In this document: in pieces, positions 42,460 through 51,387 of the stretch
Position numbering within the stretch: position 1 is the stretch's first letter
Layout of the letters: every line of letters begins with the position of its first letter
Origin: Bryobacter aggregatus MPL3
Lineage (GTDB): Bacteria; Acidobacteriota; Terriglobia; Bryobacterales; Bryobacteraceae
Assembly: GCF_000702445.1 (NCBI RefSeq)
Contig: NZ_JNIF01000003.1
Span: forward strand, 1 to 64,000
DNA length: 64,000 nucleotides
Reading direction: 5' to 3'
The notes under the pieces: model-generated
What the model saw: the letters and a program-made list of their open reading frames with translations, nothing else
The model's database searches: none
What the model was told of the DNA's origin: nothing
Position numbers and translations under genes: made by a program

Positions 42460-43518
42460 ATGTTGAAGGCGAAGTATGAACGGTGGCTCGATCGCTGGGA
42501 GACCGATCTGGCTACCCGGTCCACCGACCGCGTGGTGCGCCCCTTTGAATGGGGTACGGAATGGCTCACCGATCTGAATCTGCCGGGTCTCCGGGCCTAC
42601 GATGGACAGAACCCCGAAGCCTGGATCCGCGAAGTGAACCAGGCTGCGATCAAGAACGGCAGCGACTTCTTCCAGCACACAACGCCGAAAGATTTCACGC
42701 TCGACGGCGAATGGCTGCGCTTCACCTCTCCGGTGGATTCGCCCTATCCCGAAAACAATCTCGTCGAAGCCCGCTGGTTCCCGATGCCTGAGGGCAAAGA
42801 GAACCGCCGCAAGCGCGCCGTCATCGTCTTACCGCACTGGAACTCGCACGCCGAACAGCATGTCGCCCTCTGCCAGGGCTTCCAGAAGCTCGGCATCCCT
42901 GCCCTGCGCCTGAGTCTGCCCTATCATGACCGCCGCATGCCGCCGCCGCTCACCCGCGCCGACTACGCCGTGTCTTCCAATATCGGACGCACCATCCACG
43001 CCACGCGCCAGGCCGTTCTCGACATCCGCGCCTGCGTCGATTGGCTCGAACAAAGTGGCATTGAGCACATCGGCATCGTCGGCACCAGTCTCGGCTCCTG
43101 TTACTCCTTCCTCGCTAGCGCCTACGACAAGCGGCTGAAGGTCAATGTCTTCAACCATTGCTCGGCCCGCTTCGGCGACGTCGTCTGGACTGGCCTTTCC
43201 ACGCGCCACATCAAGAAGAGTCTCGAGGAGAATCTCAGCCTCGAACGCCTCCAGGGTGTCTGGGACGTCATGAGTCCCCGCTTCTATATGGCGCAGTTTG
43301 CCAAGCAGCAAGAGAAGAAAAACCTCTTTATTTACACCACCTACGACACCACCTTCTTGCCGCGTTACTCGGAAGAGATCCTCGCCGACGTCAAGAGCCA
43401 CGGCGCACCGCATAAATTGGTCATCCTTCCCTGCGGTCATTACACGATGGGCGAGACGCCCTTCAAGTTCATCGTCGGCTATCACATCATTTCTCACATT
43501 GCTCGAAAATTAGGCTAA
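42460..43518 (+). CDS. Alpha/beta hydrolase
   Basis: A 352-aa enzyme. The nucleophile elbow is GTSLGSCYS (Ser near 207), and GHYTMGE near the C-terminus supplies a likely catalytic His. An N-terminal cap of about 110 residues precedes the core. No signal peptide is seen. The substrate is unknown. It is probably cotranscribed with the aldo/keto reductase. Confidence 0.8.
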   Translation: MLKAKYERWLDRWETDLATRSTDRVVRPFEWGTEWLTDLNLPGLRAYDGQNPEAWIREVNQAAIKNGSDFFQHTTPKDFTLDGEWLRFTSPVDSPYPENNLVEARWFPMPEGKENRRKRAVIVLPHWNSHAEQHVALCQGFQKLGIPALRLSLPYHDRRMPPPLTRADYAVSSNIGRTIHATRQAVLDIRACVDWLEQSGIEHIGIVGTSLGSCYSFLASAYDKRLKVNVFNHCSARFGDVVWTGLSTRHIKKSLEENLSLERLQGVWDVMSPRFYMAQFAKQQEKKNLFIYTTYDTTFLPRYSEEILADVKSHGAPHKLVILPCGHYTMGETPFKFIVGYHIISHIARKLG

Positions 43519-43528
43519 CCGCGTCCCC

Positions 43529-44086
43529 ATGCGTCAGTCTATTGGACAGATGCAGGGGACTGACGCCGAGATCATCGGTCTGATCCGCAATGGCGACAAG
43601 AGTGCCTACAAGGTGCTCGTGGATCGTCACAGCCGGATGATCTTCCGGGTTGCCTACCGCATCACTCGCAACGAAGGAGACAGCGAAGATGTGGTGCAAG
43701 AGAGCTTTTTACGGGCCTATCGAAATTTGGAACGCTTTGACGAGCGAGCCAGCTTCGGCACCTGGCTCCAACGCATCGCAACCAACTGCTCGCTCGATCT
43801 GGTCCGCAAACGCAAGCACACGGCAGACACTGGCGGCGAGGTTCCGGACTACGCCGACGCGGCCCCCAAGCCCGACCGGCTCCTCGAAAGCAGCCGCATG
43901 CGCGAGCAACTGGAGCGCGGCATGCAAACCCTGAGTGAGCAGGAGCGCGAAGCCTTTTTGATGCGCCACATCGAAGGGCAATCGATTCCCGAAATCAGCG
44001 ACAAACTGGCGATCGGCATCAGTGCTGCCAAGCATAGTGTCTTTCGTGCAGTGGAGAAATTGAGGCGTTATGCAGCAGGACGATGA
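43529..44086 (+). CDS. ECF-type RNA polymerase sigma factor
   Basis: A 185-aa protein. The sigma-2 region lies at about residues 25-90 (RITRNEGDSEDVVQESFLRAY). The sigma-4 region lies at about 130-183, with the helix-turn-helix in QSIPEISDKLAIGISAAKHSVF. The downstream gene starts 17 bases before its stop, so sigma factor and membrane partner are coupled, as usual for ECF sigma and anti-sigma pairs. Confidence 0.9.
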   Translation: MRQSIGQMQGTDAEIIGLIRNGDKSAYKVLVDRHSRMIFRVAYRITRNEGDSEDVVQESFLRAYRNLERFDERASFGTWLQRIATNCSLDLVRKRKHTADTGGEVPDYADAAPKPDRLLESSRMREQLERGMQTLSEQEREAFLMRHIEGQSIPEISDKLAIGISAAKHSVFRAVEKLRRYAAGR

Positions 44087-44645
44087 AGAGTTGATCATCC
44101 CTGAGCCCGATGCCGCGTTCGAAGATCGCATCTGGGCCCGGGTCTCCCGGCAGATCGATCAGGAAGCGAAGAAAAGCTGGAACTGGAAGTGGTTTGCCGT
44201 GCCCGTGCTGGCAACAGCGGCGCTCGCCATTGCCTTCTTCGCCGGACGGGTCAGCAAAGACCCCGACGGCATCACCGCCATTGCCTATCTGCCGCAGGAA
44301 AAGATGCTGCGCGCCGCCACCGTCGAGCACCTCGATCGCAGCAAGATGGTGCTGATCGAAACCACCAACAGCATCGGCCACAAACTGCCACGGGGCCGGG
44401 CCGAAGAACTCATTGCCAACAATCGCCTGCTCCGCCGCAGCGCGGTGCAGGCAGGACAAATCCAAACAGCGGAACTGCTCGAAGAACTCGAACGAATCCT
44501 CGTCGAGATCGCTCGCAGCCCCGAATCCATGAACCGCGAGGAAGCCACGGCACTCCAGGCACGCATTCGTGAACAGGGTCTACTCTTTCGCGTGCGCCTT
44601 CTCGAAAACGAACAGAAACAACCCAAGGAGCTAGACGCAGAATGA
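44070..44645 (+). CDS. Membrane protein, probable anti-sigma partner
   Basis: A 191-aa protein. A cytoplasmic N-terminal 40 residues is followed by one membrane helix (about 43-60) and a helical exterior domain. It lacks a zinc-binding anti-sigma motif, so the role is inferred from overlap with the ECF sigma gene. It overlaps the next HEAT-repeat gene by four bases. Confidence 0.65.
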   Translation: MQQDDEELIIPEPDAAFEDRIWARVSRQIDQEAKKSWNWKWFAVPVLATAALAIAFFAGRVSKDPDGITAIAYLPQEKMLRAATVEHLDRSKMVLIETTNSIGHKLPRGRAEELIANNRLLRRSAVQAGQIQTAELLEELERILVEIARSPESMNREEATALQARIREQGLLFRVRLLENEQKQPKELDAE

Positions 44646-45622
44646 AACTGCTATTGCCATTGACCCTCACCGGCGCCCTGTTGCTGGGCTACGTTGCGGA
44701 CGAAAAGAATTACCAGGAAGCCCTGTCCAGAATCGATAGCCGCGATTACAACGTCGCACTTGCCAAGTTGCGCACAGAGATCAACTCGGCCACTTCCCGC
44801 GCCGACGCAGCGATGTACTGGAGCGCCTACATCAAGAACAAACTCGGCGAGCGTAACGAGGCGCTGAAGCTGCTCGCCGACATGCAGCAGAAGTTCGGCA
44901 AGAGTTCCTGGATGGACGACGCACGCGCTCTGCAGCTCGAAATCCAACAGGCCTCCGGCAAGAAGATCTCCCCTGAAGAGCAGGCCGACGAAGACCTCAA
45001 GCTGATGGCGATCCAAGGCCTCATGAATGCCGAACCCGAACGCAGCATCCCGCTCCTTGAGCAGATCTTAAATTCCCAAAAGAGTCCTCGGCTGAAGAAG
45101 CAGGCTCTCTTCGTTCTGGGCCAAAGTAGCAATAGCAAGGCGCAGGAAGTGATCGGCCGCATCGCCAAAGGCACCGGCAATCCCGAGCTGCAAAAGATGG
45201 CCATCCACAGCCTCGGTATCGGTGGCAAAAAGAATGCCCCCATCCTCGAAGACGTCTACAAAAGCTCCAGCGACCTCGCCGTCAAGAAGGAAATTCTGCA
45301 CAGCTTCATGATCATGGGAGAGAAGGATCGTCTCGGCTCTCTGGCCAGGAGCGAACCCGACGAATCGCTGCGATCGCAGGCCATCCACCAGCTCGGCATC
45401 AGCGGCGGCAAGGAGTATTTGGTCCAGCTTTACGGCACGGAAACCAGTCTAAAAGTGAAGAAGCAGATCATGCACGGCCTCTTCGTCGGCGGAGCCGCCA
45501 AGGAACTCGTGCAGGTGGCCCGCTCTGAAAAAGATCCGGAGTTGAAGAAGGAAGCCTTCCGCTCGCTCAGCATGATGAACAGCAAAGAAGCGACAGACTT
45601 TATGATGGAGATCCTCAAATGA
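44642..45622 (+). CDS. Exported HEAT-repeat protein
   Basis: A 326-aa protein with an N-terminal hydrophobic signal (LLLPLTLTGALLLGY). A TPR-like helical part at about 20-105 precedes six or more HEAT repeats of about 30 residues, each with the pattern LKKQALFVLGQ or LRSQAIHQLGI. HEAT arrays are protein-binding scaffolds. It is part of the sigma/anti-sigma operon and could be an extracytoplasmic sensor for it. Confidence 0.8.
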   Translation: MKLLLPLTLTGALLLGYVADEKNYQEALSRIDSRDYNVALAKLRTEINSATSRADAAMYWSAYIKNKLGERNEALKLLADMQQKFGKSSWMDDARALQLEIQQASGKKISPEEQADEDLKLMAIQGLMNAEPERSIPLLEQILNSQKSPRLKKQALFVLGQSSNSKAQEVIGRIAKGTGNPELQKMAIHSLGIGGKKNAPILEDVYKSSSDLAVKKEILHSFMIMGEKDRLGSLARSEPDESLRSQAIHQLGISGGKEYLVQLYGTETSLKVKKQIMHGLFVGGAAKELVQVARSEKDPELKKEAFRSLSMMNSKEATDFMMEILK

Positions 45623-46134
45623 AATGGCTCCTCCTGATCACCTTCGTCGCAACAGTAAACGGTCAGGATTTGGGCGCGGCCATCGCCGCCGCGCCCCCGG
45701 AAACATGGGTCGGCTATGAGGTTCCCATGCAGTCTGGTCGTGGAACCATTTGCAGCAACTGGAATGGTAACAACAGCAGCATCCACACCTACCAATCCAA
45801 GCTGATGCTCGACGGCCCGCGTACGATGAAGATCCTCTTCAACGGCAGCAAGATGCTGCTCGCCAGTGAAGATTGCGTGATTGACACCGGCTCGCAGAAA
45901 CTCATCATGCTCCCCAACATCAGCCCTGCCGCCAGCATTCACTATCTCGCCAAGCGCGAAGACGACAGCGGTATCCACGCCATCTCACTCCACAAAGACC
46001 CGCTCGCCGTCCCCACCCTGATTGCGATGATTCGCGACAGCAAGAATGCAAAACGCCAGAAGAAAGCAATGTTCTGGCTCGCGCGCTCGACAGACCCCAA
46101 GGCCGAAGAGTTCATCCTCAGCGTCCTCCGCTAA
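45619..46134 (+). CDS. Exported HEAT-like protein
   Basis: A 171-aa protein with a short signal peptide (WLLLITFVATVNG). A Cys-containing beta-rich middle follows, then two C-terminal HEAT-like helices (DPLAVPTLIAMIRDSKNAKRQ and KKAMFWLARSTDPKAEE) like those of the preceding protein. It overlaps the upstream gene by four bases, and its stop overlaps the convergent large gene by 17 bases. Confidence 0.7.
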   Translation: MKWLLLITFVATVNGQDLGAAIAAAPPETWVGYEVPMQSGRGTICSNWNGNNSSIHTYQSKLMLDGPRTMKILFNGSKMLLASEDCVIDTGSQKLIMLPNISPAASIHYLAKREDDSGIHAISLHKDPLAVPTLIAMIRDSKNAKRQKKAMFWLARSTDPKAEEFILSVLR

Positions 46135-49100
46135 GAGTGGCAAACTTCTCCGGCTCGCGGCAATCAAGGTTATACAGATTGAAGTGGTCGAAGGCCCAGA
46201 AGTGAATCACTGGAATCCCCATGCCCTTGGCGTCCAGATACTCCTTCTGCCAGGCGCTTCCGCCGCGAAACACAGGGACCAGATAGCGTAAGGAATCCTT
46301 CGGCCACCCAAGTCCAATCGGGAACTCAATCGCCAGACGGCTCAGGTCCAGCGAACGCGACCAGGCTCCAAAGTCCAAGGCCTCCATCTTGAAGCTGTCC
46401 AGGCCACTGCCCGGCTTCATCAGGAACTCGGTAGGCAAGTTCACAAAGTAGTTCAGCGCGCCGCCCAAGTTGTGCACGCCCGCCGGAGTCGGATGATTGA
46501 CGTCATAGGGATACAGCAGCTCAAACCGCGCATTGGAGTGCGCCGCTGATACATGAACCCGCAATGCCGCAATGTGGTCCCGCAAACGATCCCGCAAGAA
46601 GCTCGCATCGGCGCCATCATTTACAGTTGGCAAATCGGTCGGCTTCCGGAACACATGCAGCGGTCGCCCCAAGGTAGCCGCCGCCAACGCCGCCGTCTCC
46701 TCATCGTAAAAGCCCATCCCGCCGTCCGGGTTCTCCGCCGTCTCATTCGTAAAGAACCACCACAGAAACTCTCCAAACTGTAAGTACGGCACCAGCCCTG
46801 CCTCAGCCTGCAAGTCCGCCAACTGCAGATACACCTCCTGTTGGTAGTTGCGCATATTGCTATTGAACGCGCAATGCGTTGAACTCAAACTCGCAAAGCC
46901 CACATCGGTGATCACCTCTTGTCCGTCTGGGTATCTCGCCGCAAATCCGCTCGGTGGATGCACCAGTTCCATCGAGCAGGCCACGACCACATCCCGCGCG
47001 CGCGCCGCCGCTTCCCCGAAAAAGTCCGCATGCCAATCGCGAGCCGCCCGGTTCAGCGGTGGGCTTTGGCTCAGATCGATCTCCCATTTGCCGGGTGTGC
47101 CGCCGGTCAAAGATCCATCGAGACTCACCACGCCAGTTGAGCTGCCTCCCAACTCCAACTCCTTCGTCAACGTGAAAGAGTAGGCAGGCGTGGGAGAGCG
47201 ATTCGTAATCCTCAGCGTCGCCTCGTCCACCTCCGCGTACACACCCACCAGCGTCGTGTTGATGAAAGAAGCAAAGTGTTGCGCGAGAATCTCGTTTGTC
47301 TCATTCGCAAAGACGGTCTTGCCGATCGGGCTCCCGCCAATCCACAGGATGATCTGATCCCCTTCGGCAAAGCTTCCGCTCAAAGTGACGGTTGCCGAGG
47401 GCACCATCGCCCCCACCCGTTGCCGCTGATTCCACCAAAACACGCCAACATACTCATTCATCGGGCCTGCAAAGCCAAGCTGATCGAAGATCCAGTGGAT
47501 GCGCTGTGGCGGCAGTTTGTAGGTGTGGTCGGTCGAATAATCCAGCGCCGGAGAAACATGCGTCCGAACCGGCAGAGGGTCCGGAACATCGGTAGCCACC
47601 GCGGCCTCCAGAAAATCGAAATCAAAAATGGCATGATTCTCGAGCGTGAGGACCACCCGATGCCGCCCTGCCGCGACGCCACTCCGCAATTTTCGCCGTG
47701 TATAAATCGGAGCCTCGGCACTCACGGCAAGATTGTGAGTGGTCGCCTCATCCTCATCGAGACTCGCTCGCACTCTACCCCGATCGTGAAACAAGGTTGT
47801 CCCCAGATACAGATTGTGTGTTGAATTGCAGCTATAGGAAACCTCGACCTGAGCCCCGCACCTCTTCGTCCGCATCGCAAAAGCTCCCGAGTAGAACCCC
47901 TCCACCTGACGCCACTTCCTGGTGTACTTGCACCACGAAGAGTTCTCTTCGACACGCACGGAATCAAGTCCAGCCACCAACAACTGCCGCTTCGCCAAGT
48001 CCCCCGACAGATTCCAGTTCGTATAAGTCGCCTGCCACTCCGTCGCCGGCAGCACAGCCGCTTCCGCCAGCGGCGGTGCATAGGTAAACCACATCTGCCG
48101 GACGCTCCCAATGCCTAACGCCGTAAAGTCCAAACTCACGCGCCAGATTCCATCAGACGACCCGCCGCTGAACTGCCGCAACGCCTCGGTGCGCAGCCGC
48201 GGGTTCTTCGCCACCGAATACATCGAGATCGCATTGCCATCCACGCCCGGCTTTGCGCAACGCACCGTCAACGCCGCCCCGGACACCGTCGCCTCGATCG
48301 GTAGCGCAATCGCGAGCCCCGTCCAATCGACGCTATTGATCTGCCAGGCCAAGTTCGCCGCCACCGCATGCGGTCCAATCCCGTACAGCGTATGCGTCAG
48401 CAGCGAGGCGGAACTCGACACCTCGATCTCCGCCTCATTATCGATCTTCGCCCGCAGGTTCAACTGCCAGGGCGGATCGATGGTCGCCTGCAACTCCGGC
48501 GACGCGTTCACCAGCGCCGCCAGCGCGATCACAATACTGGTGGTCGTATCGCTCAGCGTTTCGGTGTACACGTAATCCGTCGTCCCAATCGTGATCCGGT
48601 GCACGGTGCCTGCTCCCGCGCCCGCAAATGCATAGGCGCACTCCACCTTCGGCACCACATAATCAAAGGCGAAGTTCTGAAACCAGAGCGTCAGGCGATC
48701 GTACTCCTTCAAGCCGTCGTCCACAATCGTGAAAACGGCCGATGCCTTCTCCGGCGTACCCGAAACCAGCGTCGCATGCTCACTCAAGCGCACCCGCCCG
48801 GTCGTATGGTCCTCACGAATGACATCGAGATAAGGCCAATCGATCGTCGCATAGCGGGGAGAATCGAGCGGCCGCAGCCCTTCATACTGCACATCGAACT
48901 GGAGGGTCAGCCCCTCAAAGTCAAAATCCGGCAGATACTTCAGCCGCGGATGTTCGTAGAAGTTGTCCGCATCGTAGAGGATGAGAACCGCAAAGTCAGC
49001 GGCATCGCGAAACACCCCGCTCACGGCAAAGGAGTTGGCCGTGGCATGGTGCATGGCGGCCGCCGCTCCAAAGGAATCAAAGCCCCGCAGGTGCATGGTG

Positions 49101-49135
49101 CGGTTCGGCTGCAGCTTATAGATGGTTTCGGGCAT
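46118..49135 (-). CDS. 1005-aa phage-tail-like protein (tail-sheath/TIM-barrel type)
   Basis: A very large protein with no signal peptide. The N-terminal 170 residues are beta-rich. At least two units resemble repeats of phage tail-sheath and fibre proteins: GTVHRITIGTTDYVYTETLS near 180 with DGNAISMYSVAKNP near 305, and FAEGDQIILWIGGSPIG near 600 with ASFIN. The C-terminal 300 residues look like a TIM barrel (LVPYLQFGEFLWWFF, IPVIHFWAFDHFN). I recall this combination in proteins called non-contractile tail sheath, but the match is from memory. A strong AAGGAAAG site precedes the ATG. Confidence 0.5.
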   Translation of the reverse strand: MPETIYKLQPNRTMHLRGFDSFGAAAAMHHATANSFAVSGVFRDAADFAVLILYDADNFYEHPRLKYLPDFDFEGLTLQFDVQYEGLRPLDSPRYATIDWPYLDVIREDHTTGRVRLSEHATLVSGTPEKASAVFTIVDDGLKEYDRLTLWFQNFAFDYVVPKVECAYAFAGAGAGTVHRITIGTTDYVYTETLSDTTTSIVIALAALVNASPELQATIDPPWQLNLRAKIDNEAEIEVSSSASLLTHTLYGIGPHAVAANLAWQINSVDWTGLAIALPIEATVSGAALTVRCAKPGVDGNAISMYSVAKNPRLRTEALRQFSGGSSDGIWRVSLDFTALGIGSVRQMWFTYAPPLAEAAVLPATEWQATYTNWNLSGDLAKRQLLVAGLDSVRVEENSSWCKYTRKWRQVEGFYSGAFAMRTKRCGAQVEVSYSCNSTHNLYLGTTLFHDRGRVRASLDEDEATTHNLAVSAEAPIYTRRKLRSGVAAGRHRVVLTLENHAIFDFDFLEAAVATDVPDPLPVRTHVSPALDYSTDHTYKLPPQRIHWIFDQLGFAGPMNEYVGVFWWNQRQRVGAMVPSATVTLSGSFAEGDQIILWIGGSPIGKTVFANETNEILAQHFASFINTTLVGVYAEVDEATLRITNRSPTPAYSFTLTKELELGGSSTGVVSLDGSLTGGTPGKWEIDLSQSPPLNRAARDWHADFFGEAAARARDVVVACSMELVHPPSGFAARYPDGQEVITDVGFASLSSTHCAFNSNMRNYQQEVYLQLADLQAEAGLVPYLQFGEFLWWFFTNETAENPDGGMGFYDEETAALAAATLGRPLHVFRKPTDLPTVNDGADASFLRDRLRDHIAALRVHVSAAHSNARFELLYPYDVNHPTPAGVHNLGGALNYFVNLPTEFLMKPGSGLDSFKMEALDFGAWSRSLDLSRLAIEFPIGLGWPKDSLRYLVPVFRGGSAWQKEYLDAKGMGIPVIHFWAFDHFNLYNLDCREPEKFATLSGGR

Positions 49136-49441
49136 GGCGCTTTCCTTGGGTCAACAAAATCTCCGATCCCAAGCTACCCACCCGAAAAGCCGATTCCGCC
49201 CCACTCAAAACGGATCGCCCTGAAAACAAAAGAGAAATAAATCCTAAAAATCAGTGACAGCAATTCAACAAAATACAGTCACAGTATTTTTATTTTTATT
49301 TCTCCCCCATTCTCAGCAACATAGAGGCCACACACCGACAAGAGCACTCGCACAGAAAATAGCTTCAATTCTATGAGCCAGCACCCGTGTCCCACGGAGA
49401 ATGTCCGGCGCTTTTAGTTCAGACGAAACGAAGCCAATCCG
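49136..49441. promoter_or_regulatory. AT-rich divergent intergenic region with hairpin
   Basis: 306 bases between divergent starts. The inverted repeat AAAATAC (49270-49276), seven bases, GTATTTT (49284-49290) is followed by a T/A-rich tract resembling a terminator on the plus strand. A further GTGAC/GTCAC pair (49254-49258, 49278-49282) overlaps it. No gene is present. Promoters for both neighbours should lie here. Confidence 0.45.
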
Positions 49442-49987
49442 TTGAAAAGTACAGCCGACTCGAGAAACCTTGACGATCTGACACCCGAATTTCGATCCAA
49501 AATCGACGCGCTCCTCGCCGCCTGCGAGGCACGGGGCGTCCGGATGCAACCCTTTTTCACGATCCGTTCCCCCTTCATCCAAGCCCAACTCTGGTGCCAA
49601 AGCCGCTCCGCACCGACAATCGCCGCCGAGGCATCGAAACTCCGCGCCGCCGGCGCCCCCTGGCTGGCCAGTCTGTTACAGGCGCCCCCCAAGGCAGGTC
49701 CGCTGCTCACCAATGCGCTCCCGGGCCAGAGCTGGCACCAGTGGGGCGAAGCCGTCGATTGCTATGTCACCGGTTCCCAAAACGAAGCCATTTGGGACGC
49801 GAAGCACCCGGGGTACCGGGTCTATGCCGAAGAGGCGGTGAAACTGGGCCTTGACGCCGGAGCCAACTGGAAAACGATGAAGGACACCGTCCACGTGCAG
49901 CTCCGCCAACAAGCGTCCCCATCTTCTGCCGGAATGTCCTGGGCAGAAATCGAAGCCGCAATGATCAAACGTTTCCGTGAAGATTAG
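49442..49987 (+). CDS. M15-type D-Ala-D-Ala/L-Ala-D-Glu peptidase (endolysin-like)
   Basis: A 181-aa protein from a TTG start. The zinc-site motifs of M15C endolysins are visible: SWHQWGEAVDCY (His and Asp ligands, about 100-110) and DTVHVQL (third His, about 143). The TIRSPFIQAQLW segment fits the family. It would cleave peptide cross-links of peptidoglycan. It has no signal peptide. Pairing with the tail-like protein suggests phage ancestry. Confidence 0.75.
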   Translation: MKSTADSRNLDDLTPEFRSKIDALLAACEARGVRMQPFFTIRSPFIQAQLWCQSRSAPTIAAEASKLRAAGAPWLASLLQAPPKAGPLLTNALPGQSWHQWGEAVDCYVTGSQNEAIWDAKHPGYRVYAEEAVKLGLDAGANWKTMKDTVHVQLRQQASPSSAGMSWAEIEAAMIKRFRED

Positions 49988-51387
49988 TCTTCAAACGCGT
50001 TCACGGTCGTAAAGCAACTGGCGAAAGCATGATCGAGCACTTCCTCGGTCAACACCCAGGGCAGCCGCTCGAACTTGATGTGATCCGCTGCGTGCGTGAT
50101 CACATCTCGCGGGTGGCAGCGCCGCATCTTCTTCCGTCCACTGCGGTAGTACTTCGTCAAGAACTTCCCAATCAGGTTTGGACCAAATGGAATCTCGATC
50201 TTCTTACAGAACTGCTCGAAGATCTCGGCGTATTCCGCCTCGCTCGGGCTCTTCAGGTACATCTTGTACTGGATGCGGCGCAGGAAGGCTTCATCTCCCA
50301 ACTGATCCGGATTCAGATTCGTCGAGAACACCAGGAAGCACTCAAACGGCACGGTGATCTTGCCACCCTGCTGAAAGTTCAAATAGTCGATGCGCCGTTC
50401 CATCGGCACAATCCAGCGGTTCAGCACTTCGGCGGGAGTCACGCGCTGCCGCCCAAAGTCATCGATCAGGTAGATGCCATTGTTCGCTTTGATCTGGAAC
50501 GGGGCATCATAGATTTTGCTGGCCTTGTTGAAACTCAAATCGAGATTCTCCAGCGCCAGTTCGCCTCCGGTGGTGATGAAAGGCCGCTTGGTCCGGAAGT
50601 AGCGCTTGTCATAACTGAAGCTATCGCTCACCGCAGAAGCAAGAATCGACAGGCTATCCGTCGCCTGGTCCAGCGGCTGGTGATACAGCGGATCGTAGAC
50701 CTGGATGATCTGTCCCTGGCATTCGATCGCATAGGGCAGATAGATCGGCGTCGTCTGGATATTGAACAGTGCCTCGGCCAGGAAGGTCTTTCCATTCCCA
50801 GGTTGTCCATAGATGAGGAAGCTCTTGCCGGAGTTGACGGCTGGCCCGATCTGGCTCAGAATGTCATCGCTCACCACCATGTGCCGGTAAGCCAGATTCA
50901 ATGCTTCGCGATTCAGCCAGCCCGGTTCCAGACGCTGCAAGCGAACCAGCTCACAGTATTCATCCAGACTCACCGGAGCCGTGCCCGCGTAGGTATTGAC
51001 CTCAAGATACTGCAGGGCGAGCTTGCGCCCCGCCTCAGAGAGGATAAAGACGCTCGACATGTTGCCCATGCCCATCGAACGCTTGGCCTGGATCAAATGG
51101 TTGCGCTTCAGGGTCTCCATCAGCGACTCGATCACGCTGTACTTGAATCCCAGCGCATTCGAGATGTCCCGCCCCAGCGCCTCGCCCTTGAAATAGAGCT
51201 GCTTCAGAATCAATTGCTCGACGGTGCTCTCAGCGATGCCCGTCTCTTCCATTGTCCCGGGCGGCGTTGGGGTCGGCAGCCCATCGCCACGTTTCTCGGG
51301 CTGAGTTCCAATTGGAATAACAAAGGGCGCAGCTTCTTGACGTTCCTCCGTCCCCAGAAACGCGTAAGACTCCAGTTCTTCACTCAT
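49984..51387 (-). CDS. AAA+ ATPase with winged-helix-like N-terminus
   Basis: A 467-aa protein. Residues 50-150 contain a helix-turn-helix-like region (SVIESLMETLKRNHLIQ). The AAA+ module follows, with Walker A GQPGNGKTF near 200 and Walker B GIYLIDDFGRQ near 305. A sensor region (FLVFSTNLNP) and an Arg-finger-like RRIQYKMYL are also present. It may act in remodelling, or in pilus or secretion assembly. No partner is evident. It converges with the M15 gene, overlapping it by four bases. Confidence 0.75.
   Translation of the reverse strand: MSEELESYAFLGTEERQEAAPFVIPIGTQPEKRGDGLPTPTPPGTMEETGIAESTVEQLILKQLYFKGEALGRDISNALGFKYSVIESLMETLKRNHLIQAKRSMGMGNMSSVFILSEAGRKLALQYLEVNTYAGTAPVSLDEYCELVRLQRLEPGWLNREALNLAYRHMVVSDDILSQIGPAVNSGKSFLIYGQPGNGKTFLAEALFNIQTTPIYLPYAIECQGQIIQVYDPLYHQPLDQATDSLSILASAVSDSFSYDKRYFRTKRPFITTGGELALENLDLSFNKASKIYDAPFQIKANNGIYLIDDFGRQRVTPAEVLNRWIVPMERRIDYLNFQQGGKITVPFECFLVFSTNLNPDQLGDEAFLRRIQYKMYLKSPSEAEYAEIFEQFCKKIEIPFGPNLIGKFLTKYYRSGRKKMRRCHPRDVITHAADHIKFERLPWVLTEEVLDHAFASCFTTVNAFED

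Follow-up and report, generated by a model that had tools for sequence, protein, structure and literature searches.

We analyzed a stretch of 64,000 nucleotides (the window: positions 1 to 64,000 of contig NZ_JNIF01000003.1) from the genome of Bryobacter aggregatus MPL3, which is 5.75 Mb in 4 contigs, and propose, with a probability that we put at roughly 0.55, that it encodes a captured phage receptor-binding tail protein which works in trans for a vertically inherited particle of the Bryobacteraceae resembling a gene transfer agent (GTA). GTA-like particles are used by some bacteria for passing DNA to each other. The gene in question (46118-49135) specifies a protein of 1005 amino acids (aa), which is a non-contractile tail sheath protein (NCTSP), a name taken from the Pfam families that it matches. 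That this gene is phage-derived and domesticated is very likely; that its product works in trans for a distant GTA-like cluster we consider slightly favored over the contrary, and the window gene would then act as a second locus within a multi-locus GTA.

The original prediction, which was made from the sequence without database searches, had described tail-sheath-type repeats and a TIM-barrel-like C-terminus in this protein, and profile searches recover both. The Pfam family TIM-barrel_NCTSP (PF23845) scores 53.8 bits against a cut-off of 27, with its best stretch at residues 690-818, and NCTSP_N (PF23844) barely exceeds its cut-off, also 27, with 27.7 bits at residues 26-133. Among the PHROGs families, the protein matches phrog_6040, whose function is unknown (8.6e-23), and, over two stretches of which the best is 562-646, the 'tail sheath' family phrog_165 (E 7.8e-6). 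An AlphaFold model built from an alignment of 36 sequences has a mean local confidence score (pLDDT) of 93.1 and a pTM of 0.88, and a separate model of residues 1-522 has a pLDDT of 91.6. The top match in a Foldseek search of the PDB is a tail chain of phage N4 (9yf5_SA, E 9.9e-13, 19% identity), and VIA-align superimposes the barrel on this same 415-aa chain with Z 26.6 over 325 residues (661-1002, 17% identity), the gene identity of each N4 chain in the PDB being inferred from chain length. Next after the N4 chain come glycoside hydrolases with Z of about 20-21.6 (PgaB 21.6, Cwp19 21.3), in matches that start at residue 523-524. At the N-terminus, residues 2-386 match the large N4 sheath chain with Z 14.1 (9lc0_I and 9yf5_LA, 161 and 164 residues aligned), and in a viral structure library the top matches are phage proteins, with two of the first five being named NCTSPs. 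The window protein is an N4-type NCTSP in which tail domains like those of N4 are followed by a module resembling CBM35 and by a TIM barrel of glycoside-hydrolase-like fold (Table 1). Of the finding that the prediction had named as its refutation, a polysaccharide-degrading enzyme devoid of tail-like domains, one half is seen in the glycoside-hydrolase-like barrel, but the tail domains are present alongside it. Seven acidic residues of the barrel region (E723, E789, D811, E872, D878, E918 and D983) are invariant in all 36 aligned NCTSPs and may be catalytic. The further suggestion that the protein is a contractile-injection-like part is not supported by the searches made: among solved structures, the non-contractile sheath of N4 provides the nearest chains. 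Contractile sheaths, those of phages A-1(L) and Mu, gave part-length matches only and ranked below the N4 chains; no contractile-sheath chain outranked the latter in the fold searches, a result that leaves a relation to such sheaths possible. By sequence, the PDB yielded a single chance-level match (E 0.84), and tblastn against 50,697 phage records gave no match at 1e-5.

The proposed partners are encoded 2.86 Mb away on the same contig. Beside the NCTSP gene itself there are no sheath, tube or baseplate genes, and it encodes the only tail protein, and apart from the M15 peptidase discussed below no other phage-related product is found, among the 18 open reading frames (ORFs) of the window scanned with Pfam (NCTSP, M15 and 16 neighbors), as the prediction had stated; the search for tail genes that it had called for succeeded only at this distance. 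There, a cluster comprises genes for a portal (phrog_145, 9.2e-45), a P22-like capsid (PF11651, 1e-16), a tail tube (PF18906, 2.7e-8), a small protein that weakly resembles a scaffold protein (0.0085), further small genes, and a tail hub of 1303 aa (2907877-2911761) that matches the Phage-tail_3 and gpJ-type families (PF13550, 1.4e-11). The idea of a domesticated tail part or phage remnant can thus be narrowed: a phage tail protein has been kept by the host, and, with likely partners at this distance, it is unlikely to be a mere remnant or to function as an isolated part. The cluster sits amid housekeeping genes, with ribBA upstream, followed outward by genes for RNase E, RodA and a penicillin-binding protein, and with a Wzt-type ABC gene and an M24 peptidase gene downstream, followed by ffh and trmD; no integrase was found among the genes scanned around it. 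We compared 61 genomes, namely that of B. aggregatus and 60 relatives, and the hub is present in 37 of them (weakly in G016). In other genera the cluster has the same gene order and opens with a terminase large subunit (TerL), the identity of which is supported in locus L047 by PF03237 (4.4e-6) and PHROG TerL families (to 7.8e-38). TerL, portal, capsid and hub occur within one stretch in 20 genomes, an NCTSP gene directly follows the ~1300-aa hub gene in 20 relatives, and the same ABC gene lies downstream in 12 of 28 cluster loci, although in several of the 28 the flanking sequence is too short for a decision. A second gpJ-like hub family of 1086-1285 aa (L034, L036, L042, L084) is found just before or near NCTSPs in some Bryobacteraceae; it accompanies long 'type C' NCTSPs of about 1157-1403 aa in G034, G035, G019 and G027, with more than one copy in G034, G035 and G027.

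NCTSPs were found in 36 of the 61 genomes and fall into distinct kinds. Well beyond what chance would give, 5 other genus genomes encode full-length intact homologs of the window protein (66-76% identity); the remaining 2 of the 8, which are 88% and 79% complete, have no match. The stand-alone NCTSPs (14 with that of the window) form one clade with an SH-aLRT support of 100, which spans 8 genera and one unplaced metagenome-assembled genome, and is nested among phage NCTSPs, apart from the clade of cluster-borne versions. Phage NCTSPs on IMG/VR contigs, such as L145, L147 and L154, are 45-49% identical to the window protein and belong to the strongly supported clade that holds the stand-alone forms; unlike the latter, they lie on contigs of 36-49 kb catalogued as viral, and not beside bacterial housekeeping genes. 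The trees were restricted to NCTSPs of at least 800 aa and hubs of at least 1000 aa, with partial and extra NCTSPs typed separately. No genome among the 61 has both kinds: 13 carry a stand-alone and 21 a cluster-type NCTSP (20 beside the hub and a fragment in G023). The extra NCTSP pieces (12 by tree, 15 loci by best match) are phage-type, type C or, in G023 and G039, cluster-type, and all fall outside the stand-alone clade, while a 94-aa frame of G049 cannot be typed (62 vs 58 bits). All 9 stand-alone genomes with a readable cluster end lack an NCTSP in the 4.2-4.5 kb after the hub, and in 3 of 3 control clusters one is present there. Hub and NCTSP are both present in 34 of the 61 genomes and both absent from 22, with 5 discordant, in counts that ignore shared ancestry. 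Further, in two metagenomic clusters from IMG/VR (L151 and L184) a phage-type NCTSP directly follows a cluster-type hub, and therefore exchange has happened in place too.

The cluster shows several signs of being an inherited possession of its hosts. Distances among its proteins correlate with those of rpoB (Spearman 0.62 for the hub in 22 genomes, 0.74 for the portal in 20 and 0.45 for the capsid in 21), and of 2000 permutations, 0, 0 and 2, respectively, were as high as observed; vertical inheritance is judged here from this rank correlation and not from a full congruence test. Within the genus, the ratio of nonsynonymous to synonymous substitution rates (dN/dS) is, where measurable, 0.02-0.09 for the capsid and 0.06-0.17 for the hub. 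For the NCTSP it is 0.08-0.17 in the 6 of 15 genus pairs with measurable dS, and all 6 full-length genus copies are intact, in agreement with the original inference of retained function from an intact frame. Wherever the ratio can be measured, it thus speaks for strong purifying selection. In IMG/VR, the best 80 of 520 confirmed hub matches lie on contigs of at most 23.8 kb, none exceeding 24 kb, whereas 40 of 55 contigs with a phage-type NCTSP do so, a count from which 7 of 80 NCTSP loci were dropped for lack of an intact frame. Longer phage contigs, for example L146 and L163, do carry hub relatives of lower similarity (about 26-31% identical), as would be expected if the cluster descends from phages. 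When a spread of 396 genomes of the phylum was queried with the capsid, strong matches were obtained in 2 genomes, which belong to family f1, and other genomes gave 10 weak matches. Of six GTA features listed in PMC9662315, three are seen here: 1) structural proteins derived from Caudoviricetes, namely portal, capsid, tube and hub; 2) a fully endogenous location in the host genome, often at several loci; and 3) mostly vertical inheritance. The others on that list are the packaging of largely random host DNA, which calls for a packaging motor, a GTA genome exceeding the capacity of a single particle, and the delivery of DNA to other cells.

Under the proposal that we favor, the NCTSP gene encodes an N4-type sheath or receptor-binding protein that was very probably captured from a phage. 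Its product would be made together with the vertically inherited GTA-like particle of the distant cluster and attach to the tail hub in trans, replacing a lost cluster-encoded NCTSP. The CBM35-like module and the hydrolase-like barrel might then bind, and possibly trim, polysaccharide of the recipient cell, which would let the particle deliver its cargo. We are least certain that this cargo is host DNA, which would make the particle a true GTA, for the genus lacks the cluster's terminase: at a threshold of E 1e-3, none of the 8 genus genomes yields a TerL match, and beyond the genus 26 of the 30 genomes with a hub do. This is one of several observations, set out here and in the next paragraph, that weigh against the proposal. 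The portal is the docking partner of the terminase, and its stem branch to the genus is exceptionally long (1.87 vs 1.31 for the hub and 0.17 for the capsid), which together with the missing TerL suits either loss or replacement of the terminase. The retention of capsid, portal and hub in such a setting would be expected if the cluster made some other exapted capsid-tail particle, such as an empty killing particle or a protein carrier, or represented a defective prophage lineage, with the NCTSP still serving it. We regard this as possible yet doubtful, given the GTA-like organization of the cluster, the wide occurrence of TerL outside the genus and the chance that the genus uses a replacement terminase. 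The three Terminase_6N matches above cut-off in B. aggregatus belong to split gene pairs that are multicopy and apparently mobile. Every one of the 8 genus genomes has this split family, as do 3 of the 15 further members of family f1 that were scanned. Since the 1.5-kb flanks of the split units hold no common genes beyond the pair, save one weak, distant match, and G011 has 12 matches, we do not claim these units, which are probably mobile, as the motor of the particle. Directly upstream of one of them lies what looks by eye like a CRISPR array, its repeat being 32 bases long (L121:6001-7200).

The remaining difficulties concern the link between the NCTSP and the cluster. G002, G004 and G022 did not show the end of the cluster; the five discordant genomes comprise two with an NCTSP and no hub (G012, G023) and three with a hub and no NCTSP (G007, G016, G024), 3 of the 5 being less than 90% complete; and in G003 the hub is split into two overlapping frames of 427 and 899 aa (L059:5836-9746) by a frameshift, whether real or from assembly. 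In B. aggregatus, the only genome so compared, no word longer than 10 bases is shared between the region before the NCTSP gene and that before the portal gene, as a common promoter motif would require, and no fixed gene is found across loci on the upstream side of the stand-alone NCTSP genes. A host might have reused a domesticated tail protein apart from the cluster altogether, whether to degrade or bind polysaccharide, to adhere to surfaces or cells, or to act as a decoy for phages. The separation from the cluster in every stand-alone genome with a readable cluster end, the resemblance of barrel and CBM-like module to carbohydrate enzymes, the missing TerL and the recurrent alpha/beta hydrolase neighbor described below would all fit such a role. 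We nevertheless consider it unlikely, for the tail-attachment domains are kept at high model confidence, the presence of NCTSP tracks that of the hub, the two kinds of NCTSP exclude each other, two clusters took phage-type NCTSPs in place, and no secretion signal is evident by eye (no predictor was run). Mutual exclusion could in turn reflect nothing but shared ancestry, with the gene being left over from a decayed prophage. The rpoB tree implies 4 changes between the NCTSP kinds, but its branches with SH-aLRT of at least 95 force only 1, and therefore shared ancestry could explain much of the exclusivity; 26 of 30 genomes contributed rpoB rows, and all trees are quick, single-gene ones. A prophage origin would also suit the phage NCTSPs as closest relatives outside the stand-alone clade and a terminase-small-subunit-like gene upstream of the NCTSP in G019. 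Selection strains this explanation, however, in view of the intact genus copies and their low dN/dS, even though dS is saturated for many genus pairs, and so do the extent of the single clade over many genera and the hydrolase neighbor conserved with it; we hold a mere leftover to be quite improbable. Capture for a trans role remains our preferred reading. On a broader and more speculative view, which we put forward only tentatively, the Bryobacterales would carry an ancient, independently evolved GTA that swaps its host-recognition protein for phage-captured copies, in place in L151 and L184 and once far away in trans, and in the genus its packaging motor may have been replaced by the scattered two-gene split terminases.

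Comparison with known systems places the NCTSP closest to the tail of N4, whose sheath is described in PMC12633501 as a gp64:gp65 heterodimer, with gp65 as the receptor-binding protein. Like these, the window NCTSP has the N-terminal tail domains of the large sheath chain and the C-terminal barrel of the 415-aa tail chain; unlike them, it joins both halves in one protein with the CBM35-like module between. It also differs in that its gene stands alone on a bacterial chromosome and in that its likely partner is a siphovirus-like tail, with a tube and a gpJ-like hub, and not an N4 tail. In the GTA of Rhodobacter capsulatus (RcGTA), genes are spread over five loci according to PMC10883770, and PMC13420450 describes a megatron with a peripheral TIM barrel and a detachable tailspike, TspA, with a gene module of its own, which on our reading of that paper lies apart from the RcGTA virion cluster. 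The system proposed here shares with RcGTA a small endogenous head-tail cluster, vertical inheritance and a hub that weakly matches the NCBIfam family GTA_megatron (5.5e-6). It departs from RcGTA in several respects: the megatron model NF048004 gives 24.4 bits against a cut-off of 800, so that the hub does not qualify as RcGTA-like; the cluster capsid matches the P22 coat family; a protein other than the hub carries the TIM barrel; TerL of the cluster is missing from the genus; and gene transfer by the particle is putative. According to the review PMC11841831, the genes of a GTA are commonly distributed over several loci, some of which comprise no more than one or two genes; sequence does not yet allow new GTAs to be pinpointed with certainty, and such small loci at distant sites increase the difficulty.

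GTAs have been verified in few lineages, and the present cluster would be a candidate in the Acidobacteriota, a phylum of soil bacteria. Among the open-licence papers listed by searches on this subject, no title or abstract opening reported a GTA in this phylum, which is not proof of absence. Among related papers, PMC5900883 deals with prophages of acidobacteria; in PMC6172770, GTAs are named as one possible origin of reads that are not viral; and according to PMC12142844, GTAs can arise from cryptic phages that are inherited vertically, such as the shared contigs of that study, one of which aligned to the genome of a member of the Acidobacteriaceae. If our proposal is true, such a particle recognizes its recipients by means of a module that is replaced from phages. 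Its usable signature consists of cluster-sized contigs in viral collections, a housekeeping setting, and an NCTSP that is either cluster-borne or stand-alone, the two being mutually exclusive.

Table 1. Positions and supporting evidence of the NCTSP gene, its domains, its neighbors and the split terminase-like units of B. aggregatus (window positions, save in the last row)
Feature	Position	Strand	Evidence
Stand-alone NCTSP gene, very likely phage-derived	46118..49135	-	intact 1005-aa ORF, ATG start
NCTSP_N and N4 gp65-like N-terminal tail domains, residues 1-386	47978..49135	-	VIA Z 14.1 to N4 tail chains
CBM35-like carbohydrate-binding module, residues 390-517	47585..47968	-	VIA Z 13.7-14.0 to several CBM35 structures, ~120 residues
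TIM barrel, N4-sheath-like and glycoside-hydrolase-like, residues 523-1003	46127..47569	-	VIA fold matches
Tail-sheath-like insert inside barrel region, residues about 575-680 (bounds by eye)	47096..47413	-	phrog_165
Intergenic region, A+T-richer, presumed NCTSP promoter region	49136..49441		306 bp, 46% GC vs 57% for window
M15 peptidase, judged not part of the system	49442..49987	+	181 aa, TTG start as listed; divergent from NCTSP
RcgR-family alpha/beta hydrolase, conserved neighbor of stand-alone NCTSPs	42460..43518	+	NCBIfam NF047337, 203.5 bits vs cut-off 182
Split terminase-like units	G000:C3:2282103, C4:232357, C3:4098046 (L120, L121, L122)		TerL-type ATPase gene ~250-290 aa, then presumed nuclease half ~220-240 aa

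The arrangement of two divergent genes across an AT-rich region, as originally described, is confirmed at the positions in Table 1, and the second of them does encode a peptidoglycan peptidase, for VanY and Peptidase_M15_4 of Pfam match it above their cut-offs. Its casting as an endolysin partner of the tail protein fails, since only 2 of the 61 genomes give a match, the second of them at E 1.3e-5 with 35% identity over 81 aa, so that a convincing copy exists in B. aggregatus alone; we rejected it as the endolysin of the particle on this lack of conservation. An AAA ATPase (49984-51387) that overlaps the end of the M15 gene by 4 bases weakly matches the anti-phage ATPase IteA (4.4e-7, far below cut-off). 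On the downstream side, genes for an extracytoplasmic function (ECF) sigma factor and a HEAT-repeat protein and two small genes (43529-46134) are convergent with the NCTSP gene. This group separates the NCTSP from the RcgR-family alpha/beta hydrolase in B. aggregatus (G000), G002, G003 and G004, and it was not found in G005, where the two genes abut. Of 13 stand-alone loci with sufficient flanking sequence, 10 have the hydrolase close to the NCTSP; five of these 10 are outside the genus (G012, G018, G019, G022 and L022), and there both genes share a strand. PMC9601222 presents RcgR as a predicted alpha/beta hydrolase that takes part in the conjugation of rhizobia and has been noted in Acidobacteria as well; at a guess, its relative here might be an accessory to the NCTSP system. 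Upstream, the terminase-small-subunit-like gene of G019 (L029:12309-12935) directly precedes a stand-alone NCTSP, an arrangement that is not general. Nor is that of an unrelated small-gene family (L026:7832-8554, L025:502-1242, L088:2958-3533), which lies directly upstream of the NCTSP in G002 and G004 and of which a homolog adjoins a split terminase unit in B. aggregatus; two of its three members begin with an ANRxNAQxSTGP-like sequence.

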